This document shows, piece after piece, positions 8,458 to 34,699 of a DNA stretch of 55,308 bases. The stretch covers positions 1 through 55,308 of the forward strand of contig JAMLHF010000027.1 of NCBI GenBank assembly GCA_023957275.1, in the 5' to 3' direction. A program made the position numbers and the translations under genes. The notes beneath the pieces are model-generated. The model did not search any database and was not told the origin of the DNA. It saw only the letters and a program-made list of their open reading frames with translations. This DNA comes from Lentimicrobium sp. (GTDB lineage Bacteria; Bacteroidota; Bacteroidia; Bacteroidales; Lentimicrobiaceae). Position 1 is the first letter of the stretch. Every line of letters starts with the position of its first letter.

Positions 8458-8779
8458 TACAGAAATAGGATAATATTTCAACACTAAAATAAGTACGACA
8501 GCACAACCTGCGATAAAAAGATTGCCAGGGCAATTTGTTATTCAAGGGTTGTAGCATATTCAAAACTAAACAAAACGAAAGAAATGATGGCTGTTGATAC
8601 AATTTCCTATCAATCGCACCATCTTTGGAATTGAAAAATCCGGAATTCAGGCATATAATCTCTTCTATGCTTCCTGTTCACGAAAAAACTAAAAAAAATT
8701 CAAGGAACCCACAATCGCTTGACTTTAGTATGTATTTTCATACCCGCAATTTATTCATGCGCTGATAAAACATACTGTT
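8458..8779. other. gene-free stretch with an imperfect nested hairpin
   Basis: No gene is seen. At 8503-8552 an imperfect nested inverted repeat has outer arms ACAACC/GGTTGT, a partial middle pairing ATAA/TTAT and inner arms ATTGCC/GGCAAT (8521-8534). Its shape recalls a recombination hairpin such as an attC, but the conserved core triplets of attC are not convincingly present. The rest is AT-rich. Confidence 0.35.
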
Positions 8780-13132: not shown

Positions 13133-14650
13133 CTACTCCAGGGGTTCCGGTTTAATCCTTACGCCGTCGTATTTCTTTTCGATGCCGTTCTGGTAACTGA
13201 TCACCATAAATACCGTTCCATCGGTATTGTACTGAATCCAGTCGCCGTTTTTCATACCCATCAGGTACTCGCCTTCGTCTTTCTTTTTACCATCCGGCCA
13301 GAACCAGATATGGCGCCCGTTGGGATTGTCGTCGATAAAAGCGCCCTGAAAGCTGAGCTGCCCGTTGTCGTAATAATATTTCCAGTCACCGTTGCGCATT
13401 CCGCCGCGGTAGGTGCCTTCTTCGCGGTGGTCGCCGTGCTGGTATTTCCAGAATCCTTCCTCAAGTCCGTCAACATACTCACCCTGAATAATCACGGTTC
13501 CATTTTCATCATATTCGGTAAATAATCCTTCCGATTTTCCGTTCAGGAAATTCTCTTCACGCAGCAACAATCCGTCTTCGTAATACCATTTCCACAGACC
13601 ATCGGAATTTCCCTGGTTGTTGTAATTACCTTCCTGTTCCAGATTTCCGTTCTGATGGTAGAAGCGCCATTTGCCTATGCGCTGGCCGTTACGGTAAACA
13701 CCTTCCGACCTCAGTGTTCCATCCGCATAAAACTCTTTCCAGGGTCCGTCTTTTACCCCTTCATCGTCAATTATTCCTTCGGCCGTCATCACTCCATTGG
13801 TAAAGGTATAGGCCGCAACCACCTCACCCTTTTCATCATACTCCCGTCTTATACCTTCGGGGGTATCGCCCTTGTAGCTGGCCCTGGTTTTTACTTTTCC
13901 GTCAGGATAATAATCGGTGCGCACATCCAGCTTAACCAGTTCGGGCGGTTCTTCCTGCCTGACATCATTCACATATTTGGCAATATCAATGAGCATACCT
14001 TTTTCGTCATACTCTTTGAAGTAGCCGTTGCGCTTATCGTCGCGGTAATTGCCTTCTGTTTTTACTTTTCCGTCGGGGTAGAAAAATTTCCATTTACCCT
14101 GTTTCAGTCCGTTGCGGTCGCGGCGGTTGATGTTTTCGCGATCCACCACAAAACCGCGCCGGTATTCTATCATGGTAATCACCGTTCCTTCCTGGTCGTA
14201 TTCACGCGCATACCCGTTTTCGAGGCCGTTTTCGAAATTAATCGTCCGCATTATTTTCCCGTCAGGATAAAAATAAACGGTTAGTCCGTGTTTCACATCA
14301 TTCGAAAAATTCTCTTCAATAATTTCATTTTCCCTGAAAGTGCGTCGGATGCCTTCCTTTTTGCCGTTCAGATAGGTAATCTGCAGGGTGGTTTTACCGT
14401 TTTCGTCATAAAAACTCCAGATGCTGTCGAGTTCGAAATTTCTACGGTTTCCTTCCGATTTCAGGGTGCCGTTTTCCCAGTAAGTTTTCCAATAACCATC
14501 AGGTTTTCCGTCGCGCATCATCCCTTCGCTGGAAACCTTGCCATCGGGATGGTAAAAGCGGTTGAATCCGTTGGGTACAACGGTGTTGTCCTGCGCTTTC
14601 AGAAGAAAGGCAATCATCACTAAAACCAGAAACAGCAGTGATTTTCGCAT
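13133..14650 (-). CDS. secreted MORN-variant repeat protein (YwqK-like)
   Basis: A 505-residue protein with a signal peptide (MRKSLLFLVLVMIAFLLKA, cleavage before QDN) followed by more than a dozen MORN_2-type repeats of about 22-23 residues. Typical units read YPDGKVKTEGNYRDDKRNGY and FYADGTLRSEGVYRNGQRIG. Automatic pipelines label such proteins toxin-antitoxin YwqK family antitoxin, but nothing here supports a toxin-antitoxin role. The repeat builds an elongated beta surface and export points to the envelope. It stands 33 bases upstream of nadA on the chromosome, but nadA is transcribed toward it, so read-through from nadA is possible. Confidence 0.82.
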   Translation of the reverse strand: MRKSLLFLVLVMIAFLLKAQDNTVVPNGFNRFYHPDGKVSSEGMMRDGKPDGYWKTYWENGTLKSEGNRRNFELDSIWSFYDENGKTTLQITYLNGKKEGIRRTFRENEIIEENFSNDVKHGLTVYFYPDGKIMRTINFENGLENGYAREYDQEGTVITMIEYRRGFVVDRENINRRDRNGLKQGKWKFFYPDGKVKTEGNYRDDKRNGYFKEYDEKGMLIDIAKYVNDVRQEEPPELVKLDVRTDYYPDGKVKTRASYKGDTPEGIRREYDEKGEVVAAYTFTNGVMTAEGIIDDEGVKDGPWKEFYADGTLRSEGVYRNGQRIGKWRFYHQNGNLEQEGNYNNQGNSDGLWKWYYEDGLLLREENFLNGKSEGLFTEYDENGTVIIQGEYVDGLEEGFWKYQHGDHREEGTYRGGMRNGDWKYYYDNGQLSFQGAFIDDNPNGRHIWFWPDGKKKDEGEYLMGMKNGDWIQYNTDGTVFMVISYQNGIEKKYDGVRIKPEPLE

Positions 14651-14683: not shown

Positions 14684-15664
14684 CTATCTGATCAGTTTTG
14701 CTGCTTTTGAAATTTCCAGCATCCTGATAATCGGTTCTTTGGCCCGTTCTATAACATCGGTATCCAGTAAAATTTCCGGAGATTCATTTTTCAGACAGAG
14801 ATACAATTTCTGTACCGTATTCATTTTCATATAAGGACAATCGTTACAGGAACAGGTTTCATCCGATGGCACAACAATAAATTCCTTATCGGGAGAAGCT
14901 TTCTGCATCTGATGAATGATACCGCCTTCGGTTGCCACTATATACCGTTTGTGGGAATCCTTTTTGGTAAATTCAAGCAAAGCGGCGGTGGATCCGATGA
15001 ATTCGGCCAGTGCAAGCACCGGTCCGCGGCATTCGGGATGTGCAATCAGTTTCGCATCCGGATTCTCAATTTTCAGCTGTATCACTTTTTCGTCACTCAG
15101 CTGGTTATGCACATGACAGCTCCCGTCCCACAATATCATATTACGCCCGGTTTGTGCGTTGATGTAAGCGCCCAGATTTTTGTCGGGAGCGAATATCAGT
15201 TTTTCATCCTGCGGAAAAGAATCAACAATCATTTTTGCATTACTGGAAGTACAGATTACGTCTGACATCGTTTTAACGGCTGCAGAGCAATTAATGTACG
15301 AAACCACCTTATGCCCCGGGTGAGCCTCAATAAAGCGTTTAAAATCGTCCGGAGGGCAGCTGTCGGCCAATGAGCAGCCGGCTTCGAGATCGGGCAGCAA
15401 AACTTTCTTGTCAGGACTTAATATTTTTGCTGTTTCAGCCATAAAATGCACGCCGGCAAAAACAATAATATCTGCATTGGTTTCCGCTGCTTTTTGCGAA
15501 AGCTGCAGGCTGTCGCCGACAAAATCGGCGATATCCTGAATTTCCGGTACCTGATAATAATGAGCCAGTATTACCGCATTTTTGGCTTTCCGCATTTCAT
15601 CGATCAGTTTCAGCATTTCATCGTTGGTCTTCATCCCGCAATGGTTTTGTGAATAATCAGTCAT
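14684..15664 (-). CDS. nadA: quinolinate synthase
   Basis: A 326-residue cytoplasmic [4Fe-4S] enzyme that condenses iminoaspartate with dihydroxyacetone phosphate to quinolinate in de novo NAD synthesis. Seen: AHYYQVPEIQDIADFVGDSL, LPDLEAGCSLADSC, SYINCSAAVK, HPECRGPV and CSCNDCPYM. The last three carry the expected cluster cysteines. Length is normal for the shorter NadA form. Start is ATG 15664; an internal ATG ten codons later is an alternative. nadB and nadC are not in the window. It faces rpiB across a 514-base structured gap. Confidence 0.95.
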   Translation of the reverse strand: MTDYSQNHCGMKTNDEMLKLIDEMRKAKNAVILAHYYQVPEIQDIADFVGDSLQLSQKAAETNADIIVFAGVHFMAETAKILSPDKKVLLPDLEAGCSLADSCPPDDFKRFIEAHPGHKVVSYINCSAAVKTMSDVICTSSNAKMIVDSFPQDEKLIFAPDKNLGAYINAQTGRNMILWDGSCHVHNQLSDEKVIQLKIENPDAKLIAHPECRGPVLALAEFIGSTAALLEFTKKDSHKRYIVATEGGIIHQMQKASPDKEFIVVPSDETCSCNDCPYMKMNTVQKLYLCLKNESPEILLDTDVIERAKEPIIRMLEISKAAKLIR

Positions 15665-16178
15665 TTCAGTTTTTAATAATGAAATCTTTAAATAAAAATC
15701 ATTATTATTATTACTGCTGTTAATTCTGTTGGAAAATTGTTGATTTTAGTTCTTGTTTTTTTCCTTATCAGCAGTTTATCAACAGCCGGTTAACCGGAAA
15801 AATTTCAGATTATTGTTGTATCACAAATATTTAGCCAACTATTAACAGTTTGTTGATAACATGATTCTAACAGGTGCAAAAGTATCTGAAAGATGTTTAT
15901 TTCTGTTGATTGCGTGTTAATTGTTTTTGACAAAATAGTTGAATTTCATACACGAAGGATACACTTCTGAGAATTCTGAATAAATCAGCTCATTTTTCAG
16001 AATTTTATAACAAAGTTAATCCTGAATTAACAAAACTTTGTTAATAAACTTTAATTTTCTGATCTGCAACATAATAGTTTATCAAACGGGTTTTCTGAAA
16101 TTTTTAAGTGTCTTATTTCTAACCGGCTCGGTTGATAACCTCAATTAATGATTAATTTTGTGATAAAATTTATTAACA
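15665..16178. other. AT-rich structured gap between nadA and rpiB; candidate replication origin
   Basis: Seen: two exact TTATCAACA 9-mers (15776-15784 plus; 15851-15859 minus). One-mismatch relatives lie at 15765-15773 (TTATCAGCA), 16039-16047 (TGTTAATAA), 16130-16138 (GGTTGATAA) and 16170-16178 (TTATTAACA). There is a perfect palindrome CCGGTTAACCGG (15786-15797), an AATTCTGAA/TTCAGAATT inverted repeat (about 15971-16004) and an ACAAAGTT/AACTTTGT inverted repeat (about 16010-16041). TTATCAACA differs from canonical DnaA box TTATCCACA at one position. With parS sites in the same window, an oriC is plausible. The gap also holds the rpiB promoter, so regulatory use is the alternative. Confidence 0.45.
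16132..16160 (+). promoter_or_regulatory. rpiB promoter
   Basis: TTG at 16132-16134, an 18-base spacer and TAATTTTG at 16153-16160, 18 bases before the ATG at 16179. The -33 box overlaps a DnaA-box-like motif. Confidence 0.5.
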
Positions 16179-31301: not shown

Positions 31302-32240
31302 TTAAACCGCGTCAGCAGCCTTTATTTTAGCCCCCGGCTTCCTTAAAATGTAAATCAGGCTTGAATATTCATTATTTCCCATGCCGGCCATAAAATTGGA
31401 GACAAATCCGCGATAAGCGGCGCGGATAAAACATAGAGAATGATTCATATATTTTTCACTTAATAGTGAAATATAATATGAATCAAAAAGCATTGGACGG
31501 ATATCGGAAATTTCAAACTGATGTTTTTCGGCAAGAAATTTCAACGAGTTCCGGTCATAATGGAAAAGATGGCGGGGTACATCCCAGGCAGCCCAGTATT
31601 TGCCGTAGTGGGATGCATCATTGGAAGCGCGGTTGGGTAAGGCGATAAAAACATAGCCACCGGGTTTAAGCAGACGGTAGATTTGTTCCATCCTTTCATC
31701 CGGATCTTCGACATGCTCGAGCACATGCCACAGGGTGATTACATCGAAAGTTAAGGGAGGGATATTGTTCAGTTCTCCCGGCTCAGTGACATTCAGCCCG
31801 TGAACACCGGCGGCATATCCCCTCGCCTGCTCGTCGGGTTCCACCCCGGTAGTGGTATAACCCCTTTTTTTGCATTGATTCAGAAACTCTCCCGTGGCGC
31901 ATCCGATATCCAGAATCATGTTGCCCTTGGTAAACCGGCGGATCAATCTGATTTTTTGTCTGAGGGTATAATTACGGATAAACTGGTAAACGCGGCTTTG
32001 CAGATCGGACTTTTTATTGGAGTGCGAAATGTAATCCTTCGACCGGTAGTAAGCAGGCAGTTCATGGCTTTCCGGCTTTGGCCAGGTAAACATTATACTG
32101 CATGCAGGGCAATGGTAGATATGGAAAGTTTCCTCTGTCAGAAAGTAATCTTTCAGTTCAAGGTGTTTAGTAAGTTCCTTATTATCACATAATAAGCATT
32201 TTTCCGGGGCTGAAATCGGTGATTGTTTCACGTGAAACAT
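31302..32240 (-). CDS. class I SAM-dependent methyltransferase with N-terminal zinc motif
   Basis: A 312-residue protein. The N-terminal CLLCDN...YHCPAC looks like a zinc-binding pair. The SAM-binding motif I is MILDIGCATGEFL (about 109-121), and VITLWHVLEHVEDPDE is the post-motif helix. The substrate is unknown; such zinc-plus-methyltransferase proteins often act on sugars or lipid-linked glycans. The first codons (MFHVKQ) are encoded by a parS site (32224-32239), so its N-terminus is constrained by chromosome-segregation DNA. It lies 18 bases behind mnmG. Confidence 0.85.
   Translation of the reverse strand: MFHVKQSPISAPEKCLLCDNKELTKHLELKDYFLTEETFHIYHCPACSIMFTWPKPESHELPAYYRSKDYISHSNKKSDLQSRVYQFIRNYTLRQKIRLIRRFTKGNMILDIGCATGEFLNQCKKRGYTTTGVEPDEQARGYAAGVHGLNVTEPGELNNIPPLTFDVITLWHVLEHVEDPDERMEQIYRLLKPGGYVFIALPNRASNDASHYGKYWAAWDVPRHLFHYDRNSLKFLAEKHQFEISDIRPMLFDSYYISLLSEKYMNHSLCFIRAAYRGFVSNFMAGMGNNEYSSLIYILRKPGAKIKAADAV
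32224..32239. promoter_or_regulatory. parS site 1 (ParB-binding, consensus)
   Basis: TGTTTCACGTGAAACA, a perfect 16-base palindrome identical to the widely conserved parS consensus TGTTNCACGTGAAACA. It spans the start of the methyltransferase gene, just downstream of the mnmG stop. Confidence 0.9.
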
Positions 32241-32258
32241 GTTTAGGCGTTTGGTTGA

Positions 32259-34130
32259 TTATTTACTTAAATACACAACAAGTACTGAAATGTCAGCCGG
32301 TGAAACCCCGTTGATTCTGGATGCCTGTCCGATGGTTTCAGGCCGTAATCTGCTCAGTTTCTCCCGGGCTTCAAATGAAAGTGACGACAGGGCGGCGTAG
32401 TCAAAATCATACTTCAGGGGCATGCTTTCAAATTTTGAAAGGCGCTGGGCAAGTTCCTGCTCCTTCTCAATATACCCCTGATATTTAACCAGTATTTCTG
32501 TTTCTTCGATCAGCTCCCCGGCCAGATCGCCATATTGATCAAAGTGATTTTTCAGGAAGGGTAAACAGGATATCAATTGATTCAGGCTGATCTGAGGGCG
32601 GAGGAGAATGGAGCCGAGTTTTACTTTCTGTGAAATGGGCGCAGTTCCGGCCTGCTCCAATATCCCGTTAACCGCATCTGGTGAAACACTCTCCTTTTCG
32701 AACAACGCAATGGATTTTTCTACCGCGGCCTTTTTGTTTTCTGTCCTTTCAAAACGCTCCCGGCTTGCCAGGCCCAGCTCATGCGAAATCCCGGTTAACC
32801 TGAGATCAGCATTATCCTGTCTCAGAAGAATCCTGTATTCAGCCCTTGAGGTAAACATACGGTAAGGCTCATCAATCCCTTTGGTTATAAGGTCGTCAAT
32901 CAGCACGCCGATATAAGCCTGGGCACGTTGAAGTATAAATGGCTCTTTTTCTTTTAATTTCAGATGGGCATTGATTCCCGCCATCAGTCCCTGGGCGGCA
33001 GCCTCTTCGTAACCGGTTGTGCCGTTAATCTGGCCGGCGAAATAAAGGTTCTCCACCCGGCGGGTTTCCAGGGTATAGTGCAGCTGATAGGGAGGGAAAT
33101 AATCATATTCAATGGCATAACCCGGTCTGAATATTTTCGCGTGCTCAAATCCGGGTATTTTCGTGAGGGCTTTGTACTGCACATGATCAGGAAGACTCGA
33201 CGAGAAACCGTTGATATAATATTCCACCGTGTCCCAACCCTCCGGTTCCACGAAAAGCTGATGTCTGTTTTTGTCGCTGAAACGGTCGATTTTATCTTCA
33301 ATTGAAGGGCAGTATCTGGGGCCCCTTCCGGCAATTCGTCCGGCATACATCGGCGATTCATCAAAACCTGTTCTGAGGATATCATGCACACGGGTGTCGG
33401 TATAAGCCAGATAACAGCTTCTTTGCCGGAGTAGTTTGGGTGTATTGGTAAAGGAAAAGCGGCCAGGCGTATCATCCCCTTTCTGCTCTTCCAGTCTGCT
33501 GAAGTCAATGGTTCTGCCATCCACCCTGACCGGAGTGCCGGTTTTCAGGCGTGCAGATTCAAATCCCAGATCAGTCAGGTTTTCGGTAATACCGGTCGAT
33601 GCCCGGTCACCCATTCTTCCGCCTCCGAATTGTTTGCTGCCGATGTGTATAATGCCATTCAGGAAAGTTCCGTTGGTCAGTATTACTGCCCGGGCTTTGA
33701 TGGTTTGCCCCATGGCGGTTTTCACTCCGGTGACCCTGCCATCTGCAGTGGTAATGCCGGTAACTGTGTCCTGCCAGAAGTCAAGGTTGGGCGTTTGCTC
33801 AAGCATCTGACGCCATTTAATGGAAAATAGCACCCGGTCGCTTTGGGCCCTGGGACTCCACATGGCGGGGCCTTTTGATTTGTTGAGCATGCGGAACTGA
33901 ATCATGGTGTGGTCTGTAACAATGCCTGAATAGCCACCCATGGCATCGATTTCACGCACGATCTGCCCCTTCGCGATCCCTCCCATTGCCGGATTGCATG
34001 ACATCTGAGCAATGGCGGCCATGTTCATGGTAATAAGCAGGACGGATGATCCGAGATTCGCGGCAGCAGCTGCAGCCTCACTTCCTGCGTGGCCGGCTCC
34101 TACAACGATAACATCGTATTCTTTAAACAT
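32259..34130 (-). CDS. mnmG: tRNA uridine-5-carboxymethylaminomethyl(34) synthesis enzyme
   Basis: A 623-residue FAD protein (GidA) that with MnmE modifies the wobble uridine of several tRNAs. Seen: VVGAGHAGSEAA (residues 9-20), CNPAMGGIAKGQIVREIDAMGG, RARAVILTNGTFLNG-type core, GRMGDRAS, GRAPRYCPSIEDK-like GRGPRYCPSIEDKI, and AGQINGTTGYEEAAAQGL. Length is normal. mnmE is not in the window. parS sites flank the gene on both sides. In many bacteria gidA lies near the origin, consistent with this context. Confidence 0.97.
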   Translation of the reverse strand: MFKEYDVIVVGAGHAGSEAAAAAANLGSSVLLITMNMAAIAQMSCNPAMGGIAKGQIVREIDAMGGYSGIVTDHTMIQFRMLNKSKGPAMWSPRAQSDRVLFSIKWRQMLEQTPNLDFWQDTVTGITTADGRVTGVKTAMGQTIKARAVILTNGTFLNGIIHIGSKQFGGGRMGDRASTGITENLTDLGFESARLKTGTPVRVDGRTIDFSRLEEQKGDDTPGRFSFTNTPKLLRQRSCYLAYTDTRVHDILRTGFDESPMYAGRIAGRGPRYCPSIEDKIDRFSDKNRHQLFVEPEGWDTVEYYINGFSSSLPDHVQYKALTKIPGFEHAKIFRPGYAIEYDYFPPYQLHYTLETRRVENLYFAGQINGTTGYEEAAAQGLMAGINAHLKLKEKEPFILQRAQAYIGVLIDDLITKGIDEPYRMFTSRAEYRILLRQDNADLRLTGISHELGLASRERFERTENKKAAVEKSIALFEKESVSPDAVNGILEQAGTAPISQKVKLGSILLRPQISLNQLISCLPFLKNHFDQYGDLAGELIEETEILVKYQGYIEKEQELAQRLSKFESMPLKYDFDYAALSSLSFEAREKLSRLRPETIGQASRINGVSPADISVLVVYLSK

Positions 34131-34137
34131 TCACTGG

Positions 34138-34153
34138 TGTTTCACGTGGAACA
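34138..34153. promoter_or_regulatory. parS site 2 (ParB-binding, consensus on minus strand)
   Basis: TGTTTCACGTGGAACA on plus; the minus strand reads TGTTCCACGTGAAACA, an exact match to TGTTNCACGTGAAACA. It lies in the leader of mnmG, 7 bases upstream of its ATG. Confidence 0.88.
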
Positions 34154-34276: not shown

Positions 34277-34699
34277 TTAAGGGATCAGTGCCAGGCATTC
34301 TTCCTCTTTGCTGCGCATAAGCGCTGCGTCTTTCCGGGTTTTATCCTTATATCCGCATAAATGCAGAATGCCGTGTATCATAACCCGGTTCAATTCCTCA
34401 ATAAATGGTTTCCCAAACAGGACGGCATTTTCTTTTACCCGTGGTATGCTGATAAATACATCTCCCGAGATGGTATCCCCGGCGGAATAGTCGAATGTAA
34501 TTACATCCGTCAGCGTATCGTGTTGCAGGTATTCCATATTCATATTATACAGGAACTCATCGCTGCAAAAAATAATGCTGACCTCTCCCGCTGTTCTGTT
34601 CTGCTGACTGATGCAGTTCAACATCCAGGCCCTGGTATGTCTGATCCCCGCAAGCCGGTAGTTTACATCCTCACGGTAAAAGTTAATCCTGCCCGCCAT
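34277..34699 (-). CDS. ybeY: endoribonuclease YbeY
   Basis: A 140-residue metalloprotein from ATG 34699, involved in 16S rRNA 3' maturation and ribosome quality control. The zinc motif HGILHLCGYKDKT has the first two histidines, but aspartate stands where the third ligand (H in HGxLHLxGYDH) usually is. I recall this variant from other Bacteroidota, so it is probably lineage-typical. The longer ORF start at 34723 is rejected because a -7 box (34721-34728) overlaps it. It lies upstream of mnmG on the same strand. Confidence 0.9.
   Translation of the reverse strand: MAGRINFYREDVNYRLAGIRHTRAWMLNCISQQNRTAGEVSIIFCSDEFLYNMNMEYLQHDTLTDVITFDYSAGDTISGDVFISIPRVKENAVLFGKPFIEELNRVMIHGILHLCGYKDKTRKDAALMRSKEEECLALIP

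Follow-up and report, generated by a model that had tools for sequence, protein, structure and literature searches.

Two parS Sites Bracket mnmG

The window analysed here, a whole stretch of 55,308 nucleotides (contig JAMLHF010000027.1 of assembly GCA_023957275.1, Lentimicrobium sp.), carries the gene mnmG (gidA; positions 32259-34130, minus strand; 623 amino acids; TIGR00136, 824 bits) between two copies of parS, the 16-bp palindrome bound by the ParB protein of ParABS chromosome segregation systems. Both copies are exact. Site 1 (TGTTTCACGTGAAACA, 32224-32239, a perfect palindrome to which no strand is assigned) is located 19 bp past the mnmG stop codon and overlaps codons 1-6 of the next open reading frame (ORF), a class I S-adenosylmethionine (SAM)-dependent methyltransferase whose product begins with MFHVKQ (31302-32240, minus strand; PF13489, 5e-31). 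Site 2 (34138-34153, TGTTCCACGTGAAACA on the minus strand) is located 7 bp ahead of the mnmG start codon, and on its far side from mnmG it is adjoined by ybeY (34277-34699, minus strand; TIGR00043, 98.8 bits). A preliminary description of this DNA had placed two consensus parS sites at 32224 and 34153, flanking mnmG; the coordinates and the letters proved correct, and the profile match confirmed the identity of the gene. The named MnmG loci closest to that of the window come from Bacteroidota, with the Bacteroidales label on three of the best five records.

The window was searched with TGTTNCACGTGAAACA allowing up to two mismatches, and only these two sites were retrieved (four strand matches), while 100 shuffled versions gave a mean of 0.10 expected matches and a largest count of 2. 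The pattern TGTTNCACGTGNAACA, the 16-bp palindrome of chromosomal ParABS systems, was then applied with at most one mismatch to the draft genome (4,408,024 bases in 145 contigs, the window being contig C66). Two forward matches were found, both at mnmG; the reversed control pattern gave one match.

ParB and a ParA-Like Protein Are Encoded Off the Window

No parA or parB gene had been visible to the preliminary description in this DNA, and within the scope of the tests this is correct: parB has two matches in the genome, on contigs C63 and C80. The product of the C63 gene aligns with ParB and Spo0J chains of solved structure (7bnk_A, E 5.2e-51). In a helix-turn-helix alignment in which the correspondence was established by eye, it keeps the arginine and the glycine at positions 173 and 201 of the numbering used in PMC7383237, where both are described as absolutely conserved in ParB orthologs (this and the other papers below are cited from excerpts of their text). 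The cognate ParB thus has DNA-recognition residues of the parS type, and a ParA partner is present as well: an ORF with the motif KGGVGKTT beside the C63 parB is ParA-like, judged from its sequence. As to the second ParB-like ORF (G000:C80:45029-45466, L033; 274 amino acids, 117 bits), it is adjoined by an ATPase-like ORF.

A parB gene was found in each of 21 single-contig genomes of Bacteroidota and in all nine genomes of another set that included our own. In all 14 single-contig genomes with exact parS sites, parB and parS are separated by 495 kb to 1.84 Mb. The separation between dnaA and parS ranges from 17 kb to 1.70 Mb; it exceeds 250 kb in ten of these genomes and is 17-113 kb in the other four. 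The longest assembly of the same genus, G001, consists of two contigs; in it, parS is found at 3.0126-3.0145 Mb of C1, parB at 1.18 Mb of C1 and dnaA at 0.46 Mb of C2.

parS Is Linked to mnmG across Bacteroidota

Exact parS sites were detected in 33 of 41 genomes (our own, 18 of the same genus and 22 of the same order), and mnmG was present in all 29 loci that were fetched around a parS site in the relatives (no locus was fetched for G020, G022 and G039, which have sites, and a third site of G030 was left out). Among the best 80 of 592 named mnmG loci, 47 carry an exact parS and 61 a parS with at most one mismatch within 1 kb of mnmG or inside it. These 80 loci hold 151 sites with at most one mismatch. 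The distance to an mnmG end is at most 150 bp for 109 of them and 150-1000 bp for 31; two more are inside mnmG and nine are more distant. When the same loci were shuffled three times by mononucleotides, 0-1 parS sites appeared overall, and in no locus was there a site near mnmG.

A spread of 198 Bacteroidota genomes with completeness of 95% or more gave exact parS in 145 (259 sites vs 3 for the reversed pattern). Where the places of both parS and mnmG were listed (45 genomes, i.e., 37 plus eight single-contig additions; G201, G212, G102 and G149, with parS listed and the place of mnmG not, were left out), parS lies within 1 kb of mnmG in 37 genomes, which accounts for 71 of 87 sites. Of the 21 single-contig genomes, 14 have exact parS, and all 30 of their sites are at most 18 kb from mnmG, 21 of them within 1 kb. 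An even spread over the chromosome, which would have told against the preliminary description, is therefore not seen: both sites of our own genome and 30 of 30 in the single-contig relatives are at or near mnmG.

In G056:C1:1086925, L152 and L163, parS was observed inside the mnmG coding sequence rather than beside it. In family f28 (G217, G197 and G103), the observed parS sites do not adjoin mnmG.

The listings of a literature search contained no statement of a general parS-mnmG linkage; the parS survey of Livny et al. 2007, cited as such in PMC10197239, was outside that search, and the linkage may be partly known already. In our view, the parS pair of the window is very probably an ordinary centromere of the ParABS type, and the place it occupies is unusually constant, as a tendency throughout the phylum.

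GC Skew around parS

The GC skew was sampled in 20 stretches of 20 kb per genome, ten on each side of parS, and the two sides were compared by the Mann-Whitney test. The mean skew to the left and to the right of parS was -0.084 and +0.026 in G173 (p 0.0013) and -0.043 and +0.016 in G134 (p 0.0046). A two-point fit placed the origin 7 kb from parS in G173, 155 kb in G134, 66 kb in G045 (sampled in 5-kb stretches) and 303 kb in G157, the fitted origins being 0.96-1.71 Mb from dnaA. For G173 and G134, none of 60 permutations each was as good. The switch of skew sign near parS is thus clear in two of four genomes, weak in one and not significant in one. The distance from parB to the fitted terminus was 542 kb in G157, 314 kb in G173, 1214 kb in G134 and 89 kb in G045; in G001, parB (C1:1180158) is near the fitted terminus (0 or 70 kb, depending on the layout of the contigs).

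An oriC far from dnaA is common in Bacteroidetes according to PMC4755523. In PMC10197239, the origins of 12 gut bacteria, two Bacteroidetes among them, were taken as the skew shift nearer to the parS cluster, and the origins so chosen did not systematically match dnaA; since parS was used in choosing the origin, this is not independent support.

We conclude that the two palindromes very likely serve a ParABS system as its centromere on the chromosome (parS) and that the locus is probably origin-proximal. The sites are few and clustered, with signs of origin nearness that vary between the genomes sampled, and the parS pair probably marks the neighbourhood of the replication origin. The preliminary description had called this segment origin-proximal and a chromosome-segregation centre, and both the clustering and the skew support it. 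ParB occupancy and spreading, segregation and origin proximity in this species are what we infer from the sequence. A parAB operon at another place on the chromosome would supply ParB, which would load on both parS sites and spread across mnmG and its neighbours; ParA would then move the ParB-parS complex and the newly copied origin region would be separated first, from which it would follow that the locus is origin-proximal.

A Candidate oriC between nadA and rpiB

Canonical DnaA boxes do not point to an origin in the window: there are six exact TTWTNCACA words and they form no cluster. Clusters of at least four DnaA boxes occur in six of the best 80 of 592 mnmG loci, and five of these lie 2.5-3.0 kb downstream of mnmG (L101, L111, L126, L128 and L156, from Roseivirga, Dyadobacter and Cyclobacteriaceae); they are perhaps the oriC of those five loci. 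The same place in the window was rejected as its origin because it falls inside a histidine-kinase ORF and has no box cluster.

The cumulative GC skew of the window reaches its minimum at 15637, inside the start of nadA and 28 bp to the left of the divergent intergenic space between nadA and rpiB (15665-16178; 514 bp, 26% GC). In G001, the minimum over 95 contiguous kb is at 3,030,842, inside the same space, and it is shallow (-150 on a curve reaching +490). A cumulative skew minimum is thus found locally, 16 kb from parS, in two genomes. The space is AT-rich, non-coding and of conserved length, with 502-678 bp and 22-32% GC in 18 of 19 genomes of the genus (G011 was left out owing to a contig break).

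The box TTATCCACA was not found in any of the 18 nadA/rpiB regions. A DnaA-box-like word, TTATCAACA, occurs in them 19 times vs 0.5 in shuffles, and TTAT[CT][AC]ACA occurs 52 times vs 1.9 (the largest count in 200 shuffles was 6); since the genomes are related, these counts are not independent. In the window, a word search located TTATCAACA at 15776-15784 (plus strand) and 15851-15859 (minus strand), and another DnaA-box-like word, TTATTAACA, at 16039-16047 (minus strand) and 16170-16178 (plus strand). The regions contain 3-15 TYAACA cores each (mean 9.9), distributed along their length, and their oriented alignment consists of short conserved words separated by diverged spacers. The alignment also revealed, beside a TTAACA word, a run of TAA triplets (TAATAATAATAATGA on the minus strand, 15699-15713), such a run being present towards nadA in 12 of the 18 regions, which we take to resemble a DnaA-trio unwinding element. 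In 1.175 Mb of G001 sampled in 59 stretches (L169 was left out because of overlap), the nadA/rpiB space is the only 520-bp span with at least three TTATYAACA words.

Where the recognition helix of the solved DnaA chains 8btg and 1j1v, of B. subtilis and E. coli, reads GGRDHTTV, the DnaA of our genome reads GNKDHATV, a change that may alter the specificity of DnaA. The word TTATCAACA has been discussed, with doubt, as a DnaA-box variant of mollicutes and predicted in a Cyanothece origin, as far as the excerpts go.

The nadA/rpiB space shares a contig with parS in 13 of 19 genomes of the genus, at 15-17 kb in 12 of them and about 65 kb in G010. Outside the genus but within the order, nadA is 11-55 kb from parS in the four genomes that carry the two on the same contig (G020, G038, G027 and G040). 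Twelve regions upstream of nadA could be read in these relatives (G029 and G030, which lack upstream sequence, were left out): three contain 3-6 words (P 0.0005 or less each, 2000 first-order resamplings), three contain one word, which is not significant, and six contain none. Of the three genomes with 3-6 words, G037 lacks an exact parS; in G033, nadA does not share a contig with parS. We rejected nadA as a marker of the origin throughout the phylum: outside the order it was found in six single-contig genomes, where 138 kb to 2.3 Mb separate it from parS and no boxes were found upstream of it in any of the six, and no nadA match was found in 8 of 28 genomes asked.

It appears reasonably likely that replication starts in the nadA/rpiB space at 15665-16178, 16 kb from the parS pair.

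Other Features of the Window

Rfam and tRNA scans of the window revealed two tRNAs and nothing else. A single copy of a 32-nt unit was observed at 8605-8636; the homologous place of G001 (L062:336-6751) has 95 copies, spaced by 65-69 bp with one gap of 133, an arrangement resembling clustered regularly interspaced short palindromic repeats (CRISPR). The lone unit of the window may reflect loss or assembly collapse.

Alternative Explanations

A number of results weigh against an origin-proximal centromere at mnmG. Eight of the 45 listed genomes have no parS within 1 kb of mnmG: in five it is on the same contig (118 kb away in G217, 26-27 kb in G205 and G111, 7-13 kb in G069 and 12-18 kb in G218), and in G197, G103 and G064 it is on other contigs. 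Exact parS was not found in 53 of the 198 Bacteroidota genomes or in 7 of the 21 single-contig ones, and 19 of the best 80 of 592 mnmG loci, some of them with short flanks, lack a parS with at most one mismatch near mnmG. In G157, the skew changes in the same direction as in G173 and G134 (-0.032 to the left, +0.024 to the right) without significance (p 0.089), and permutations were as good as the fit in 14 of 60 cases, also not significant; for G045 the figure was 4 of 60, which is weak. In G001, the fitted origin is 106 kb from parS when contig 2 is reversed and 1326 kb away in the C1+C2 layout, with none of 60 permutations as good in either layout and a slightly higher score for the reversed one (0.0306 vs 0.0277). 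Since the fit depends on how the contigs are joined, the whole-chromosome skew of G001 is ambiguous. No join was read from the listed overlaps of the contig ends, and both ends of C1 (C1:3094283-3114282, i.e., L169, and C1:1-1062) are repeats with a period of about 528 bp, which may have broken the assembly. The expectation that the locus should be near the GC-skew minimum was borne out clearly in G173 and G134; it was not significant in G157, weak in G045 and layout-dependent in G001.

Two other explanations of the parS pair were considered. The sites could be operators through which ParB, Noc or a transcription factor regulates mnmG and the next gene without any centromere role, and a protein bound at these places, 7 bp ahead of mnmG and over the first codons of the ORF that follows, would affect expression. 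However, the sites have the exact parS consensus, no third one was found in the genome, which encodes a ParB with parS-type residues, and in other genomes the word stays constant but may be found only upstream of mnmG, only downstream, within it or 7-118 kb off, so that we regard a purely regulatory role as most improbable. Alternatively, the parS pair may be real and the origin elsewhere, for example at dnaA, in which case the segregation centre would not be origin-proximal. The ambiguous skew of G001, with 1326 kb from parS in one layout, and the non-significant fit of G157 are in line with such an arrangement, but the G173 and G134 fits, which no permutation matched, lie 7 and 155 kb from parS and 1.71 and 1.27 Mb from dnaA, respectively, and the local skew minimum is 16 kb from parS in two genomes. 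In addition, the oriC predicted by Ori-Finder for two Flavobacteriaceae falls on mnmG or next to it (PMC12843772 and PMC11278836), although one figure legend in PMC11278836 marks mnmG as ter, contradicting the text of that paper. A distant origin is thus very unlikely, and an origin-proximal ParABS centromere remains our interpretation of the pair.

For the candidate oriC, the competing explanation is that the TTATYAACA array comprises operators of a nadA or rpiB regulator. A divergent promoter region offers another reason for conserved words, and the words depart from the E. coli DnaA box at position 6. No such word was found within 600 bp upstream of dnaA in six of seven loci (the seventh, L039, could not be oriented); autoregulation of dnaA through this word is therefore not seen and was rejected. 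The keto skew of the window reaches its minimum at 13845, away from nadA/rpiB, which also weighs against an oriC there. On the other hand, the TYAACA cores are many and spread over the length of each region, the array is unique in the part of G001 sampled, the GC-skew minimum coincides with it in two genomes, and, of the 13 genomes of the genus in which it shares a contig with parS, 12 have the two 15-17 kb apart. Operators are accordingly a possible, if somewhat doubtful, reading of the array. On balance, we favour a candidate oriC with putative TTATYAACA boxes for a DnaA whose recognition helix is altered, 16 kb from the parS pair that brackets mnmG, with origin, dnaA and parAB uncoupled and with the mnmG-parS arrangement tending to stay fixed in the phylum.

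Implications and Comparison with Known Systems

In Bacteroidota, where dnaA is a poor marker, parS at mnmG provides a sequence-only handle on the origin region, which would help to orient assemblies, to estimate growth from read depth and to choose loci for ParB imaging or chromatin immunoprecipitation (ChIP). With the candidate oriC, mapping the origin in this lineage becomes a direct test.

The candidate oriC contains the same word as the mollicute DnaA-box consensus TT(T/A)TCAACA (PMC3322544); mollicutes belong to a different phylum, doubts about the consensus are voiced in that very paper, and the words here are putative boxes. An oriC far from dnaA has been reported for Prevotella intermedia OMA14 (PMC4755523; a search of the text for parS and parB gave no occurrence). 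An origin at or beside mnmG has been predicted for Mariniflexile litorale (PMC11278836), where dnaA did not fit the skew, and for Algorimicrobium (PMC12843772). The excerpts of these two papers do not speak of parS, whereas in the window it is the parS pair that provides the evidence, with the candidate oriC 16 kb away. With Spo0J/parS of B. subtilis and ParB/parS of Caulobacter, the system of the window has in common the 16-bp palindrome, the type of ParB and ParA and the few clustered sites; in contrast to both, parS here is tied to mnmG rather than to parAB, with parB on another contig.

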